DNA from: Streptomycetaceae bacterium
GTDB taxonomy: Bacteria > Actinomycetota > Actinomycetes > Streptomycetales > Streptomycetaceae
Assembly (NCBI GenBank): GCA_019243445.1
Contig: JAFAUH010000058.1
Location: 1-44,764, forward strand
Direction of reading: 5' to 3'
Length of the DNA stretch: 44,764 nucleotides
This document shows positions 12,461-39,108 of the stretch, in pieces (within the stretch, counting starts at the first letter, position 1; each line of letters begins with the position of its first letter). The notes under the pieces are model-generated. The model was not told the DNA's origin. It made no database searches and saw only the letters and a program-made list of their open reading frames with translations. The position numbers and the translations under genes were made by a program.

Positions 12461-12756
12461 GTGCCGGAGAACAGCGTACCTGGTGTCGCAGGGTTCTCCG
12501 ACCAGGTATCGGCATCCAGTTACCGGCGTTGCAGGAGCTGGCCGATCAGCTCGCGGAGGTGACGCCTCGCGGAGGTGGCGCCGAGCAGCTGACCCTCGTC
12601 ACGTTCCGGCTGTGTCGTCCGGCTACGGGCCTCCGGCTGCGGCGTCAGACTCAGACTCGGACAACAGCGAAGCCCCGACCGCTCGCGGCGGTCGGGGCCC
12701 TGTTGTGGCTGTGGACCAAGTTCCCGGACTCGTCTCAGGAGCTCGTCAGGAGCTCG
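12461..12756. other. Region between tRNA-Ala and the DLW-39 gene, with a strong hairpin
   Basis: Nothing here looks convincingly coding. The tRNA-Ala promoter should lie just right of 12460; TACGCT-like -10 sequence is present on the minus strand near 12472-12478 without a clear -35. An imperfect inverted repeat (about 12479-12506) overlaps that area. A strong hairpin follows: CCCCGACCGC (12673-12682) with GCGGTCGGGG (12688-12697), extended by ACAACAG (12661-12667) with CTGTTGT (12700-12706). It is probably the terminator for the DLW-39 gene transcribed from the right. Confidence 0.5.
12661..12706 (-). terminator. Long hairpin downstream of the DLW-39 gene
   Basis: A perfect 10-bp GC stem (12673-12682 with 12688-12697, 5-nt loop), extended by a 7-bp outer stem (12661-12667 with 12700-12706). 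It lies about 50 nt past the stop of the minus-strand DLW-39 gene. Confidence 0.75.
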
Positions 12757-30497: not shown

Positions 30498-31589
30498 ATG
30501 GCAGGCTCTGTGCATCGCGAGCCTGCAGTCGAGGAGAGTGAATCCTTGCGGTCCGACGTCAATGCCGCGGGGCCGATGGCCGATCCGGTTCCTGGCCCCC
30601 GTAGTGAATCGACAGAGAGAGATGTTTCACGTGAAACACTCCCTTCTATGCACGACACCCCGATCGGCCGAGCCGCCAAACTGGCGGTAGAGGCCCTTGG
30701 GCGGGCCGGTGAGGGACTCCCCCGCCCTGAACAAACCAGAGTCATGGTGGTCGCCAACCAGAAGGGTGGCGTGGGCAAGACGACTACAACGGTCAATCTC
30801 GCCGCTTCACTTGCCCTCCACGGAGGAAGAGTGCTGGTGGTGGACCTTGACCCTCAGGGCAATGCCTCCACCGCGCTCGGCATCGACCATCACTCCGAAG
30901 TGCCCTCTATCTATGACGTCTTGGTCGAGAGCAAGCCGCTCTCGGATGTCGTTCAGCCTGTACCGGATGTTGAGGGTCTCTTTTGTGCGCCGGCTACGAT
31001 CGACCTGGCGGGCGCCGAGATCGAACTGGTCTCGCTCGTAGCCAGGGAGAGCCGTCTGCAGCGCGCCATCGAGGCGTACGAACAGCCGCTGGACTATATC
31101 CTCATCGACTGCCCGCCGTCGCTGGGCCTGCTGACGGTCAACGCCCTCGTTGCCGGTGCCGAGGTGCTTATCCCGATCCAATGCGAGTACTACGCTCTGG
31201 AGGGGCTGGGGCAGTTGCTGCGCAATGTGGACTTGGTGCGCGGTCATCTCAACCCGAAACTGCACGTCTCGACGATCTTGCTCACCATGTACGACGGCAG
31301 AACCCGGCTCGCCGCGCAGGTTGCCGAAGAAGTGCGCAGCCACTTCGGCAAGGAAGTGCTGCGCACCAGCATTCCGCGTTCGGTGCGCATCTCAGAGGCA
31401 CCGAGTTACGGGCAGACGGTGCTCACATACGACCCGGGATCGAGTGGGGCGTTGTCCTATCTGGAGGCTGCGCGTGAGATGGCATTGCGCGGCCTCGAGG
31501 TCGACTGCGGATACCAGGGGCAGGAGTCCCATATGCCTCACCAGCACGGTAAGTACGAACAGCACAGCATGCCGGAGGGGATCAAGTGA
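30498..31589 (+). CDS. parA: Chromosome partitioning ATPase ParA
   Basis: 363 residues from ATG 30498 ([20 protein letters not shown]). The start is uncertain: the frame is open from GTG 30330, and ATG 30648 ([18 protein letters not shown]) is the shortest option. 30498 is chosen because streptomycete ParA N-termini resemble this stretch. Deviant Walker [15 protein letters not shown], then [31 protein letters not shown] and [16 protein letters not shown]. Works with ParB-parS to segregate and position origins, especially during sporulation. A parS site lies inside the gene and encodes DVSRET. ParB starts within the stop codon. Confidence 0.93.
30623..30638. promoter_or_regulatory. parS: parS site inside the parA N-terminal coding region
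   Basis: A perfect 16-bp TGTTTCACGTGAAACA. In the parA frame it encodes VSRET within DVSRETLPS, so the site is both coding and ParB binding. Confidence 0.95.
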
Positions 31590-32740
31590 GCGAACGACGC
31601 AGAGGCTTGGGCCGGGGGCTCGGAGCCCTGATCCCCACCGCGCCCACGGGCGAAGCGACATCAGCTGCTGGCACGGCGGGCAAGGCCGGTCCGCCGATCG
31701 GTACGGCCGCCACATCCCCCAGTACAGTACCTGTGCTCACTCCGGAGCGCGGGATCGCGGCCGCTAAGGTCGCAGGACTGATGGATGTCGGCGGCGTCGG
31801 CTCGGCTGCGGATATCCCCGTTTCACGGGAAATCAACGCGGTCCGGCCCGCCGATGCTTCCCAGGAGTTGACGGAAGATATCTCGGGGGTGCACTTCGCT
31901 GAGCTGCCTCTCGACTCGATCACTCCCAACCCGCGCCAGCCGCGTGAAGTGTTCGACCAGGATGCCCTGGCCGAGCTTGTTACCTCCATCAAGGAAGTCG
32001 GCCTTCTGCAGCCGGTCGTGGTCCGGCAGAGCGGTCCGTCCTCCTATGAGCTCATCATGGGTGAGCGCAGGTGGCGTGCGTGCCGTGAGGCAGGTCTGGA
32101 GCATATTCCGGCGATTGTCCGTGCCACGGACGATGAGAGGCTGCTCCTTGATGCTCTGTTGGAGAACTTGCACCGTGCTCAACTGAACCCGCTTGAGGAG
32201 GCGGCGGCGTACGACCAGTTGCTCCACGACTTCTCGTGCACTCACGAGGAACTCGCCGAGCGTATCGGACGCTCCCGCTCTCAAGTCTCCAATACACTGC
32301 GATTGCTGCGACTGTCCGCTTCCGTTCAGCGGCGGGTCGCAGCTGGTGTGCTCTCGGCGGGACATGCTCGTGCTCTCCTCGTGCTTGATGATGTCCAAGA
32401 GCAGGATCGGCTGGCCCAGCGGATCGTGGCCGAGGGGCTGTCGGTGCGGTCGGTCGAGGAGATCGTGGCCTTGATGGCGGCCGAACACGGCACCGTCAAG
32501 AAGCCCAAAGGACCGCGGGCTGGTAAGCGGGTGTCCCCCGCGCTCACAGATCTTGCCTCCCGGCTTTCCGATCGCCTCGAAACCCGAGTCAAGGTCGACC
32601 TCGGACAGCGCAAGGGAAAGATCGTCGTCGAGTTCGCCTCGATAGAGGATCTGGAGCGGATCCTGGGGACGATCGCCCCAGGCGAAGGCCGCGTGCTTCA
32701 GCAGGGGCTCACGTCGGAGTCAGACGACGATGCCGGATGA
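31586..32740 (+). CDS. parB: Chromosome partitioning protein ParB (CTPase/DNA-binding)
   Basis: 384 residues from GTG 31586, overlapping the parA stop (GTGA) behind GGAGGGG. N-terminal [16 protein letters not shown] is the ParA-contact peptide. The ParB/Srx CTP-binding domain has [13 protein letters not shown] and [14 protein letters not shown]. The parS-binding helix-turn-helix contains [20 protein letters not shown], and the C-terminus dimerises. Loads at the parS sites in this window. Confidence 0.96.
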
Positions 32741-32786: not shown

Positions 32787-32867
32787 TTTGCGTGCTCGCA
32801 GTGTCGGCAATGTCGCGATCCGGTTACGATGCGATGAAGGATCGTTGGGAAATGAGGGCCTGAATCC

Positions 32868-33547: not shown

Positions 33548-33877
33548 TCAGCCGATGAAGTCACCGAGGTCGCGCTCCAGCGCGGCCTTCGGTTTGGCGC
33601 CGACGATGGTCTTGACGACCTCGCCGCCCTTGTAGACATTCAATGTCGGGATGGACATTACGCCGTACTTGGCGGCGGTGGCTGGGTTCTCGTCAATATT
33701 CAGCTTGACGATGTCGATCTTCTCGCCGTGCTCGGCAGCGATCGCCTCGAGCGAGGGGGCGATCTGACGGCACGGGCCACACCACACAGCCCAGAAATCG
33801 ACGAGAACGGGCTTATCGCTCTTGAGGACGTCTTCTTCGAACGACGCGTCGGTCACGTGCTTCACAGCACCGGCCAT
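33548..33877 (-). CDS. trxA: Thioredoxin
   Basis: 109 residues. Active site WCGPC with C33 and C36, cis-proline region [11 protein letters not shown], and [10 protein letters not shown] context are canonical. Disulfide reductase recycled by TrxB, which is encoded 48 nt upstream in the same operon. Likely induced under thiol stress through the SigR promoter before trxB. Confidence 0.97.
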
Positions 33878-33925: not shown

Positions 33926-34903
33926 TCAGACGGCTGTGGCCGTCATTTCCGGCGCGGCGATCTTCTTGGCGTCGCTCAGGGCGGCAAGATACCGCTCGGC
34001 GTCGAGCGCGGCGGCACAGCCGGTGCCGGCCGCGGTGATGGCCTGACGGTAGATGTGGTCCACGACGTCACCGGCGGCGAAGACACCGGCGAGCTTCGTG
34101 CGGGTGGCGGGGGCGTCAACCTTGAGGTAACCCTCATCGTCGAGGTCCAGTTGTCCCTTGAAGAGCTCGTTGCGCGGGTCGTGGCCGATCGCGATGAACA
34201 GTCCGGTCACCGGAAGCTCGGAAGATTCGCCGGTGTAGACGTTGCGTAGGGTGAGACCGGACAATTTGGACTCGCCGTGGATCTCGGCGATCTCGCTGTC
34301 CCACACGAACGAGATTTTGGGATCGGCGAAGGCCCGTTCCTGCATCGGCTTCGAGGCACGCAGGGTGTCGCGGCGGTGCACGACGGTGACGGACTTGGCG
34401 AAGCGGGAGAGGAAGGTCGCCTCCTCCATCGCCGTATCGCCGCCGCCGACCACGGCGATGTCCTGGTCCTTGAAGAAGAAGCCGTCACACGTGGCACACC
34501 ACGAGACACCGCGCCCGGAGAGCGCGTCTTCATTGGGGAGGTTGAGCTTGCGGTGCTGCGAACCAGTGGCGATGATGACGGCCTTCGCACGGTGCACGGT
34601 CCCGACGGAGTCGGTAACCGTCTTGATTTCCCCACTCAGGTCGACCGCGGTAACGTCGTCCGCCACGAGCTCCGCGCCGAACCGCTCGGCTTGTGCGCGC
34701 ATGTTGTCCATCAGGTCGGGGCCCATGATGCCGTCGCGGAAGCCGGGGAAGTTCTCCACCTCGGTGGTGTTCATCAGTGCGCCGCCTGCTGTGACAGAAC
34801 CCTCGAAGACAAGGGGCTTGAGGGAGGCGCGGGCGGTGTAGAGCGCAGCGGTATAGCCTGCCGGACCGGACCCGATGATGATCACGTTACGGACGTCGCT
34901 CAC
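33926..34903 (-). CDS. trxB: Thioredoxin-disulfide reductase
   Basis: 325 residues from ATG 34903. FAD-binding GSGPAG (11-16), redox-active CATC (C136, C139), NADPH-binding GGGDTA (about 153-158) and C-terminal FAD motif [16 protein letters not shown]. Transfers electrons from NADPH to thioredoxin. It is the first gene of a trxBA operon with a SigR-type promoter 68 nt upstream. The C-terminus is slightly extended. Confidence 0.97.
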
Positions 34904-34970
34904 GGCTGTCTTCCTCGTCTCTGCCGACTGCTGGGGACCCTACGGGGAAGGTCTCGGTCTTACCCCGCCT

Positions 34971-34996
34971 AACGGATCCTACGGCGCCGGCATTCC
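34971..34996 (-). promoter_or_regulatory. SigR-type promoter of trxBA
   Basis: On the minus strand GGAAT (plus 34992-34996), exactly 18 nt, then GTT (plus 34971-34973): the consensus of the thiol-stress sigma factor SigR, which controls trxBA in Streptomyces coelicolor. It would give a leader of about 60 nt. Confidence 0.85.
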
Positions 34997-35066
34997 CACA
35001 CACCCGAGCGCCACCGCTCGTGCGCGCTCAAGCAAGCGCCGGGGCGTGTCCACTCGATCGCGTTGA

Positions 35067-35082
35067 TGTTTCACGTGAAACA
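35067..35082. promoter_or_regulatory. parS: parS site between trxB and the pseudokinase gene
   Basis: A perfect 16-bp TGTTTCACGTGAAACA, extended to 18 bp at 35066-35083. It lies in the gap where sigM would be expected. Confidence 0.96.
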
Positions 35083-35177
35083 TGCGCTTCCGCATCCGGT
35101 GTCCCGGCAACGGTGGTGCCGATGAGCGCCTCGGCGGCAAGGCCGGTGTCGATCCGTTCGGTGACTCCGTCGGTTCC

Positions 35178-36905
35178 TCAGCTGGTAAATATGACGTTGG
35201 AGATCCCCTGCTTGTACCCGGGGTTGTTATAGCTATCCTGACCGGAATACGGCAGAGCGGTCAGCCACACGACAACATATTGTGTTGCGGTCTGGTTGGT
35301 TACCGTGAGCTTCGCGGTCTTGGTGGTCGTAGACGTCGAGGCGAGCTGCTGCAGCTGTGAGGGCGGCGTTGTGGTGGAGAGGGAATCGGCCGCGTAAAGC
35401 GTGACCGTCGTATGGTCCCCGCCGTAGAGGAAGTTGATGGTCGCTCCGCTGAGCTTCTGCTTGGAACCCAGGTCGTAGACGATGCCGAGGCCCTGCTTAT
35501 ACGGCGCCAGCGTCGGACCCTCGAAGAACGACTTGGTGCGCCACACCGTGGAAGGATCGTTGTCGTACGTGTTTTTCACCTGATCTGGGTGCTGGGCATC
35601 GCCGAACGGTGTGTACTCTGCGGCATCTCGGATCGTCAGCGTCTTATTGCCGACGACGCGCGATGTACCGCCGCCCGGTGCCTGTTGCACTTGGCCGGAG
35701 GATCCGGTGCCCTCGTTCTGGTGGCCCATCAAGGTGTCGGCGACCTGCCAGCTGCCCAAGCCGAGTGCGGTGATCAGCAGCGCGGTGACACCCCACTTGA
35801 GGATCTTCCCGGACCGCCCGGGAAGCGCAGGGGGCGGTGTCGGGGCGACGGGGGCCAGCCGGGCCGAACCGGGCTGAGCCGGGCGAGCCGAGGATGGGCG
35901 GTAGGAGCCGGGCCGGTAGGCAGGGGCATCCGGCTCCGGCGGCCGAATTTTGGGGAGTGCCGCCACGGCTTTGGCGAGCTCCTCGGGGGTGGTGCAGGGC
36001 TGCTCCTGGCGGGATGGGGTGGCGCCGTCGTTGACCAGGGCGCGCATGGCGAGGTCGGACAGTCCCCGATGCACCCCTGCCCGTACCTGCTCGGGTGCAA
36101 CCAGACCCAGGTTCTTGGGCAGGCCGGTGAGCCCATGAGCATCGTGAGGGTAGGGCCAGCGGCGGGTCAGGGCGGCGTAGAGGAGCGCCCCGATGGCTTC
36201 GGTGTCCTGGCGCTTGGGACGATCGGATTCGATGCCCTGCAGTGCGGCGCTGACGGCGAGTCCTAGGATGCGGTATTGCCCGCTCTCGGTACGCAGCACG
36301 GAGGCCGGTTCGAGCTGCAGATGTGCGAGGCCTTCTCGGTTCGCTGCGGCCATGGCCTGCGATACCTGGCTGACGAGTTGGTACGCCTCATGGGCCTCGA
36401 GCGGGCCGGCGGCGAGAAGCGAGGTCAGTTCGGTGGCGTCGGGGAGCCACTCGTGGACGACGTAGACCAGGTCGTTCTCCTCAACAGCGTCGAGGACCTG
36501 GACAAAGCGGGGGTCGCCGAGTAGCGCGGCCGACCGGGCGGCGGCGAGGACGCTGCGGGCTCGGGAGTGATCGGCGGGCAGGATGTGGACGCCGACGGCC
36601 CGGCGCAGTTTCTCGTCCATGGCGCGCCAGCTGCTGAAACCGTCGCGGCGGGTGAGGCACTCCTCCAGCCGGTAGCGTCTGGCGAGCTTATGACCGCTGT
36701 GGAGCTCGGGTGGCTCGGCGGCCGGTGTGGAGGACGCAGTCGCCTCGAGGCTCTGCTGCTTCGCATCCTTCGACGTGTCCTGGGCGTTCGCACCGTCGGT
36801 CGTAGCCCCGCTCTCGTCAGCGGTGAGCGGCGGTCGGCCGCTCTCGTTGGCTACGTCGACGGCAGCCGTGCTCCGCTCCGCCACCGTCGTTCCCTGCCTC
36901 CCCAT
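35178..36905 (-). CDS. MurJ-associated membrane pseudokinase with discoidin-like extracellular domain
   Basis: 575 residues from ATG 36905 (MGRQGTTVAERST), with GAGGGTGG upstream. After a disordered 65-residue N-terminus comes a kinase-like domain that lacks key catalytic residues: no VAIK lysine (RRAVGVHIL), no HRD aspartate (GLAHLQLEPASVLR), and ILGLAV in place of DFG. A Pro-rich linker and one membrane helix (ILKWGVTALLITALGLGSWQ) lead to an external beta-sandwich (TIRDAAEYTPFGDAQHPDQV). In mycobacteria the same parts are fused to MurJ and regulate it through FHA protein binding; here they form a separate gene 102 nt after murJ. Probably a regulator of lipid II export. Confidence 0.85.
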   Translation of the reverse strand: MGRQGTTVAERSTAAVDVANESGRPPLTADESGATTDGANAQDTSKDAKQQSLEATASSTPAAEPPELHSGHKLARRYRLEECLTRRDGFSSWRAMDEKLRRAVGVHILPADHSRARSVLAAARSAALLGDPRFVQVLDAVEENDLVYVVHEWLPDATELTSLLAAGPLEAHEAYQLVSQVSQAMAAANREGLAHLQLEPASVLRTESGQYRILGLAVSAALQGIESDRPKRQDTEAIGALLYAALTRRWPYPHDAHGLTGLPKNLGLVAPEQVRAGVHRGLSDLAMRALVNDGATPSRQEQPCTTPEELAKAVAALPKIRPPEPDAPAYRPGSYRPSSARPAQPGSARLAPVAPTPPPALPGRSGKILKWGVTALLITALGLGSWQVADTLMGHQNEGTGSSGQVQQAPGGGTSRVVGNKTLTIRDAAEYTPFGDAQHPDQVKNTYDNDPSTVWRTKSFFEGPTLAPYKQGLGIVYDLGSKQKLSGATINFLYGGDHTTVTLYAADSLSTTTPPSQLQQLASTSTTTKTAKLTVTNQTATQYVVVWLTALPYSGQDSYNNPGYKQGISNVIFTS

Positions 36906-37007
36906 CCGTTGCCACCCTCTGACATCAAAGCCAAAGACAATTGTGCCCACAGCCACCGCTATGCACGACACGCGACGGCGCGTGATGGTTGTGCAGCGGG
37001 CGCCACA

Positions 37008-39065
37008 TCAACGGCCCAGACGGCCCCGCACCATTCCCACCATCGCGGTCATCTCCTCGATACGCATGCGTTTGGCTGCCACGTAGAAGATGCCGATCAG
37101 GACGATGCCTCCCCCGACCACGGCGGCCAGTGAACCAGCGAAGCCGCTGCCGAGGGTCCCCATAATGGCGTAAGCGGTAGCACCGCCGATGAGGGCGGCG
37201 GGGAGGCTGGCGCCGATCAGGCGGGCGTAGGTGCGGACAATGTGGGCGCCGTCGAGGTCGCCGCCGATCCGCCTGCGCAGTCGCCTGACGGCCACCCCTA
37301 CACCGACCGCGTACGCCAGGCCATAGGAGGCGGCCATACCGACCACGGCCCAGCGGGCGGGTAGCAGCAGGAAACAGAGTCCGGAAGCAGCGGCGTTGAC
37401 GGCGGCTACGACCACCGTGTTGTAGAAGGGGGTGCGGGTGTCCTCGTAGGCGTAGAAGCCACGGAGCACGACGTACTGCACCGAGTACGGAATCAGGCCG
37501 AGACCGAACGCCATCAGCACGAAACCGATGTTGCGGGCGCCGGCGTCCCCGGAGCTGGAGTACATCATCGTGGCCATCGGCACCCCAAGGGCGAGGAACG
37601 CGAAGGCGCATGGCACGATCGCCACAGCCGAGGTGCGCAGGCCGTACGACAGGTCGTCTCGTACTGCCGCGGAGTCGCTGTCGGCAGCTGCGCGGGAGAT
37701 GCGCGGCAGCACTGCGGTCATCACGGAGACGGTGATGATGGCTTGCGGCATCTGCCACAGCAGCAGCGCATAGTTGTAGGCGGTGATGCCAGTACCTGGA
37801 TAGCCCTGCTTGTCGGCGATCGAGCCTGCCCAGGTGGCGAGTTGGATGACGACCAGCATGCCGGCCTGGTTGGCCAACACGAAGAAGAACGTCCACTTGG
37901 CAAGTTTAGCGGCGTGGCCGAGGCCGTGGCCGCGCCAGTCGAAGCGCGGCCGGATCCGCAACCCCGCTTCACGCAGGTATGGAACCATGGCCAAGGCTTG
38001 GACGGCCAGGCCGAGCAGGGTGCCGATGCCGAGCAGCCGCACGCCTTCGGGGGAGATTGTCGAGGCGTCCACTCCAGAGGTACGGGCAGTGCCATAGACC
38101 CAGATGAAGGCGCTGAAAGTGGCGATGACGACGACATTGTTGAGGACTGGGGTCCACATCATCGCGCCGAATCTGCCGCGTGCATTGAGGATCTGACCGA
38201 TGACGAGGTGCACGCCCATGAAGAACATGGTCGGCAGGCAGTAGCGCGTGAAGGAGACGGTGACGTTCATCCGTACCGGGTCGGAGGCGATGCTGTTCGA
38301 CATCAGCCGCACCAGGACCGGGGCCCCGACCACCATCACCGCGGTGACTGCGGCGAGGCCGACGACGACGAGGGTGAGCAGACGGTTGGCGTATGCCTCG
38401 CCACTGTCTTCGTCGTCCTTCATCGCCCGCACCAGCTGAGGGACGAACACCGCGTTGAGCGCACCGCCGCCGACGAGGAAGTAAATCATCGTGGGGAGGG
38501 TGTTGGCGACCTGGTAGTTGTCGCCCAGGCCGGCGACGCCGATCGCTGCGGCGATGACGAGGGTGCGCAAAAAGCCGGTGAGCCGGGAGACGAGGGTGCC
38601 GGCCGCCATGACGGCGCTCGACTTGAGCAGGCCGCTCGCGCGGCCTCCGGTGTGTGCGGGCACCTGTGGAGCCGGAGCCGACGACGGCTCCGGCTCCGGC
38701 TGTGCGGGAGATTCCGGGGGAGGCTGCTGGGGCACGGCGGGGGCCCGTTGCGGGAATTCCTGGTATTGCAGGTATTCCTGCGGTGGGTATTCCTGGTCCG
38801 GATAGCCGTAGGACTGCTGCTGTACGGCTGCGTCGCGCTGGTCCCGGAGAAGGTGCGTGTACGCGTCGTATGGCTGGCTGCCCTGCGGCGGCTGCGCCGA
38901 CTCATGGTAACCGTACGGATGCTGAGTGTGCGGGTACTGAGCGTACGCTTCCTGCGGACGTGGGTCAGGTGCGGAGCGAGGCTCAGGCGGGGGCGGCGGA
39001 CTCGTAGCCGCCGTGTCGTCGAACGGTGCTGGGCGGTCACGCTCACCGTCGTACGGCGCGTTCAT
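37008..39065 (-). CDS. murJ: Lipid II flippase MurJ (MviN family)
   Basis: 685 residues from ATG 39065. A Pro/Gln/Tyr-rich cytoplasmic N-terminus of about 140 residues precedes a 14-helix MOP-superfamily core starting SSAVMAAGTLVSRLTGFLRT. Family motifs include FVPQLVRA, ILNARGRFGAMMWTPVLNN and YVVLRGFYAYEDTRTPFYNT. Translocates lipid II for peptidoglycan synthesis. Sits between the DUF6049 gene and the pseudokinase gene on one strand, probably one operon. Confidence 0.94.
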   Translation of the reverse strand: MNAPYDGERDRPAPFDDTAATSPPPPPEPRSAPDPRPQEAYAQYPHTQHPYGYHESAQPPQGSQPYDAYTHLLRDQRDAAVQQQSYGYPDQEYPPQEYLQYQEFPQRAPAVPQQPPPESPAQPEPEPSSAPAPQVPAHTGGRASGLLKSSAVMAAGTLVSRLTGFLRTLVIAAAIGVAGLGDNYQVANTLPTMIYFLVGGGALNAVFVPQLVRAMKDDEDSGEAYANRLLTLVVVGLAAVTAVMVVGAPVLVRLMSNSIASDPVRMNVTVSFTRYCLPTMFFMGVHLVIGQILNARGRFGAMMWTPVLNNVVVIATFSAFIWVYGTARTSGVDASTISPEGVRLLGIGTLLGLAVQALAMVPYLREAGLRIRPRFDWRGHGLGHAAKLAKWTFFFVLANQAGMLVVIQLATWAGSIADKQGYPGTGITAYNYALLLWQMPQAIITVSVMTAVLPRISRAAADSDSAAVRDDLSYGLRTSAVAIVPCAFAFLALGVPMATMMYSSSGDAGARNIGFVLMAFGLGLIPYSVQYVVLRGFYAYEDTRTPFYNTVVVAAVNAAASGLCFLLLPARWAVVGMAASYGLAYAVGVGVAVRRLRRRIGGDLDGAHIVRTYARLIGASLPAALIGGATAYAIMGTLGSGFAGSLAAVVGGGIVLIGIFYVAAKRMRIEEMTAMVGMVRGRLGR

Positions 39066-39108
39066 CACTGCACCACCTTAATGTCCGCCGTGTGGGCCCG
39101 GCTGTCGG

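Follow-up and report, generated by a model that had tools for sequence, protein, structure and literature searches.

The ECF sigma factor SigT of Streptomyces coelicolor (SCO3892) is reported to be paired with the cognate anti-sigma factor RstA (SCO3891), which co-purifies with it (PMC5537264). According to published work, SigT negatively regulates differentiation and is released and degraded in a ClpP-dependent manner after proteolysis of RstA (PMC7593790, PMC6295645), and the name SigM is used in S. coelicolor for a different, SigB-type factor (PMC6295645). By neighbourhood and by kind, SigT-RstA is the closest characterised counterpart of the gene pair considered here. In mycobacteria the genes follow the usual order murJ, sigM, anti-sigma gene, trxB and trxA, and the sigma gene bears the name sigM. 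The locus also touches on the chromosome segregation system of Streptomyces, in which ParB is reported to bind origin-proximal parS sites, of which S. coelicolor has 24 and S. venezuelae 16 (PMC4852455, PMC12207404).

We describe a locus from a Streptomycetaceae bacterium (assembly GCA_019243445.1, contig JAFAUH010000058.1), contained in a stretch of 44,764 nucleotides which was analysed as a whole and is termed the window. It differs from the SigT-RstA locus of S. coelicolor in that it lacks the sigma gene and retains rstA as a relic of 136 nt. We read it as a lineage-specific loss in which a parS centromere site has outlived its host gene, rstA.

The interval between the pseudokinase gene and trxB

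The minus strand of the window carries, in order, the gene for a DUF6049 protein, murJ (37008..39068; TIGR01695, 5e-132), an adjoining pseudokinase gene (35178..36971; 597 aa, Pfam Pkinase 1.8e-5, 85% identical to its counterpart in Streptomyces humicola), an interval of 274 nt, trxB coding for thioredoxin reductase (33926..34903; TIGR01292, 3.2e-120) and trxA coding for thioredoxin (33548..33877; TIGR01068, 8e-37). Adjoining the trxA side, on the plus strand, are intact parA and parB genes, the latter (31586..32740) with its N-terminal, HTH and C-terminal domains. The interval spans positions 34904-35177, exactly as given in a preliminary description of this DNA made from the sequence by eye of a model, which also held that it contains a parS site and a SigR promoter and lacks any sigma or anti-sigma gene. 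All of these statements held: the ORF list shows no sigma-like or anti-sigma-like ORF of at least 90 aa in the interval, in which only a relic of rstA, unmentioned in that description, is found; a perfect 16-bp parS palindrome, TGTTTCACGTGAAACA, occupies 35067..35082, at a distance of 2.3 kb from parB; and a SigR-type promoter motif, GGAAT-N18-GTT, occupies 34971..34996 on the minus strand (read from 34996 to 34971).

Two other intervals in the window are also short relative to those of the sister S. humicola, namely that between trxA and parB (32835-32854; 18 nt versus about 250 nt) and that near the tRNA-Ala and tRNA-Ile genes (12510-12657; about 0.15 kb versus about 3.2 kb).

The sigma and anti-sigma genes in relatives

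As relatives we used the best 80 of 588 confirmed loci from a genome collection, with the distance between the pseudokinase gene and trxB taken between tblastn matches. The closest named match is Streptomyces humicola RB6PN25, whose trxB is 95% identical. In all of these best 80 of 588 loci the distance is about 1.7-2.75 kb, as opposed to 274 nt here, and in every one of them (80/80) the sigma and anti-sigma proteins of S. humicola find matches at the junction. This agrees with the usual streptomycete order, with sigM and an anti-sigma gene preceding trxB, from which the preliminary description had started. The S. humicola sigma factor passes the NCBIfam model of mycobacterial SigM (NF007225) with 283.5 bits at a cut-off of 190, and its anti-sigma factor has weak matches to NF052375 and zf-HC2, both below cut-off. 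The missing gene is thus sigM by NCBIfam match, but its Streptomyces name is SigT, with RstA (SCO3892/SCO3891) as its anti-sigma factor; locus number, position and annotation point to the pair in the relatives being orthologous to these two genes.

A SigM orthologue was recovered at E<=1e-45 from 147 of 150 genomes of the family, with identities among the family relatives of 61-100%. These counts, together with the 80/80 matches among the best 80 of 588 loci, speak against the possibility, raised in the preliminary description along with the proposal to compare the junction in the nearest relatives, that these never had sigM here. The three genomes without a match are the present one, G154, whose contig has its trxB start at base 303, and G161, which is 71% complete and yields no trxB match. 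Because of the contig end in the one and the incompleteness of the other, both are uninformative on the loss of SigM and were dropped as candidates for further losses in the family; the present genome is the sole evaluable case without SigM in the 150-genome family sample. In a comparison by eye, the sigM and trxB matches share contig and strand and lie within 3 kb of each other in all 36 of the genomes G001-G036. A class-wide sample gave SigM in 82 of 98 genomes (E<=1e-30), and trxB lies within the 1.5 kb flank of the SigM match in 20 of the 30 class loci fetched. The 16 misses comprise this genome and 15 others, including five genomes of 1.3-1.4 Mb from one genus; hence loss of SigM, or its divergence beyond E<=1e-30, recurs elsewhere in the class.

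The rstA relic and the deletion junctions

Proceeding from the stop of the pseudokinase gene toward trxB, we found 4 nt, then the 136-nt relic (35173-35038), a further 10 nt, and finally a segment (35027-34904) that aligns with the sister sequence directly before trxB (111/124, 90%). The relic (35038..35173, minus strand) corresponds to codons ~71-119 of the 291 of rstA and aligns by blastn with S. humicola L001:8188-8332 (107/145, 74%), with a single in-frame gap of 9 nt. At the first junction (35174..35177, minus strand) about 922 nt of the sister (L001:7266-8187), which comprise sigM in full plus the first quarter of rstA, are missing, and at the second (35028..35037, minus strand) the remainder of rstA, about 545 nt of the sister (L001:8333-8877), is replaced by the 10 nt. 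By eye, a CCGACG repeat is visible in the sister at either end of the segment missing at the first junction, and would fit a short-repeat-mediated deletion.

The frame of the relic runs open from 35177 until a stop at 35028, with no ATG, GTG or TTG start in this stretch. An RstA-type anti-sigma gene has a complete ORF with a start, a zinc-binding N-terminal part and a membrane anchor; here only codons ~71-119 are left. The relic frame continues in frame after the TGA of the pseudokinase gene. A readthrough fusion of the two was considered and set aside, as the sister ends its pseudokinase at the corresponding TGA and the relic contains no known domain. With the parS codons set aside, the relic has 40 aligned codons, which show 6, 8 and 16 changes at codon positions 1, 2 and 3, as compared with 9, 9 and 79 in trxB. 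This third-position excess is mild (binomial p 0.019) and suggests that much of the divergence of the relic is older than the deletion.

Probable loss of the sigma and anti-sigma genes

These observations lead us to favor a lineage-specific loss of sigM and rstA, with a probability that we put at roughly 0.85: the ancestor would have had the pair, and two deletions would have left behind the piece of rstA that bears parS. Comparison with the relatives shows an ancestral order of murJ, the pseudokinase gene, sigM (sigT), rstA, trxB and trxA. Relative to S. humicola, the two deletions took out sigM completely and rstA for the most part. They presumably followed the split from that species, a timing that rests on one sister because the genus is represented in the sample by this genome and a single other, in which sigM and the anti-sigma gene are complete. 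What the deletions left is 136 nt of rstA around the perfect parS, with the SigR-type motif upstream of trxBA intact. Mechanistically, deletion mediated by short repeats is likely, in a lineage losing regulatory genes, and sigM and rstA may have gone together because an anti-sigma factor is presumably useless without its sigma factor.

The preliminary description had left loss and relocation of the ECF system side by side and had proposed a search of the genome for SigM and its anti-sigma factor. In the 5.36 Mb of the genome, the S. humicola SigM query found no orthologue, its best paralogue having 34% identity, and the sole match to the S. humicola anti-sigma factor is the start-less relic in the interval itself (35034-35171, residues 71-119, 67%, E 1.2e-7). 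For these reasons we regard the loss as genuine, with the relatives keeping the pair and the relic lying in place, and reject a move of the pair to another site. With a completeness of 96.21, some 4% of the genome may be missing from the assembly and could in principle harbor a relocated copy; however, the relic records a deletion in place, and the closest paralogue (G000:C46) is SigE-like in appearance and has an anti-sigma-like ORF on the same piece (both judged by eye), rendering relocation highly improbable. An error of assembly or binning, whereby the real chromosome would have sigM and rstA at this position and the contig would be mis-joined, deserves slightly more consideration given that the assembly is a draft of 414 contigs with 4.96% contamination. 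Against such an assembly deletion, which had been named earlier as a possible refutation, the interval contains a diverged relic bordered by two distinct breakpoints, the sequence on either side of the interval matches the sister collinearly at 86-87% identity, and no fragment of sigM or rstA was found on any other contig in the whole-genome search. We therefore consider it improbable.

The loss of sigM and rstA would also fit a wider thinning of sigma factors, since the genome has 23 Sigma70_r2 matches, fewer than the 34 of the sister (7.1 Mb) and the 36-45 of six other relatives; part of this difference could stem from incomplete assembly. An HrdB-like principal sigma factor, so named by eye, is present, and the group 2-like sigma factor of the sister (G001:C2) has no equally strong match in this genome. 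The control of differentiation by SigT-RstA that is known from S. coelicolor would, by analogy, be gone from this organism. Given how nearly universal this ECF system is in the Streptomycetaceae sample, its clean loss makes the strain a natural knockout for the role of SigT-RstA.

A parS site within the coding sequence of rstA

The preliminary description was right about the presence of parS, but the comparison with relatives shows that the site is not an incidental intergenic one. In 79 of the best 80 of 588 loci a parS-like site with at most 2 mismatches lies inside the coding sequence of rstA, always in one frame, and in 76 of these 79 the in-frame site reads V-S-R-E-T. The codons used are GTT in 79/79, TCA in 78/79, CGT in 78/79, GAA in 76/79 and ACA in 65/79 of these relatives. 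To place these in context, codon usage was tallied from the trxB and sigM genes at these loci, where the shares among synonymous codons are 2.0% for GTT (Val), 2.8% for TCA (Ser), 12% for CGT (Arg), 14% for GAA (Glu) and 3.7% for ACA (Thr). The joint probability of the parS codons, given the peptide and this local usage, is 3.5e-7. Such a series of rare codons in frame implies that the DNA of parS is constrained beyond the requirements of the protein. The one remaining locus, L050, retains rstA with no recognisable parS inside it and has parS-like sites further on, so the site within rstA is dispensable there. Several more distant loci of the family (e.g. L095 and L101) have the site at a more upstream position, close to where the sigma gene ends; thus, the position of parS is not universal.

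In 12 of the best 80 of 588 loci, including L002, L003, L007, L008 and L035, rstA contains two to five parS-like sites in tandem. These are spaced by multiples of 3 and are all in frame (34/34), for which reason the linker of the anti-sigma factor seems to have grown through repeats carrying parS. In the window itself, five more parS-like sites with 0-1 mismatch are found near parAB and upstream (30331, 30623, 33486, 43118 and 43135), two of which overlap the listed parA ORF, which may start too early.

The site in the interval has the same 16-bp palindrome as the origin-proximal, ParB-bound parS array of Streptomyces, and is similarly near parAB. It is distinguished from that array by its location in a gene relic, and in the relatives by its embedding in coding sequence. 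Our literature search found no report linking parS with SigT in Streptomyces, and among the papers listed on coding versus intergenic positions of parS nothing concerned the rstA locus; passages of PMC4852455 on the parS sites make no statement on parS at rstA. A centromere site within the coding sequence of a signaling protein is an unusual double use of DNA, and here the site is still present after the protein has been lost.

Retention of parS

All 16 positions of parS are unchanged, in a relic that otherwise shares about 75% identity with the sister. Against this background, identity at 16/16 positions has p ~0.01, and a randomly retained block of 136 nt would cover parS with a chance of ~8%. 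Taken by themselves these retention numbers are weak statistics. Each is modest, and it is together with the constraint seen in the relatives that they lead us to favor selection, such that purifying retention of parS is likely. The probable reason for keeping the piece is that ParB continues to use the site as one of its origin-proximal centromeres, in keeping with the DNA-level constraint in the relatives. The fuller proposition, that parS is dual-coded in rstA across Streptomyces and that selection for segregation protected the piece bearing it while deletions removed the gene to either side, has in our estimation about an even chance of being correct. A neutral course of events, with the pair deleted and a scrap containing parS surviving by chance or through the youth of the deletion, is a tentative but quite conceivable account. 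It is consistent with the still open frame of the relic, with changes by codon position (6, 8 and 16) that look as if much of the divergence predates the deletion, and with the 8% chance of covering parS. It sits less well with the strong constraint on the parS codons in the relatives and with the absence of any change across the 16 nt that make up parS, as against ~25% in the flanks.

Were protection of a dual-coded parS to be borne out, the locus would constitute a natural experiment that separates the constraint on a centromere from that on a protein. It also makes testable the strength of selection acting on each individual parS within the large array of Streptomyces.

The SigR-type promoter of trxBA

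The SigR-type motif, with a spacer of 18 or 19, recurs upstream of trxB in 80/80 relatives (the best 80 of 588 loci). As SigR itself is encoded in this genome (TIGR02947, 349.4 bits at a cut-off of 251.55; G000:C32), we expect that trxBA stays under SigR control. After the deletion, the distance between parS and the SigR-type element of the trxB promoter is 70 nt; if the proposed retention of parS is correct, the SigR promoter of trxBA would also have come, through the deletion, to lie 70 bp from a predicted ParB loading site.
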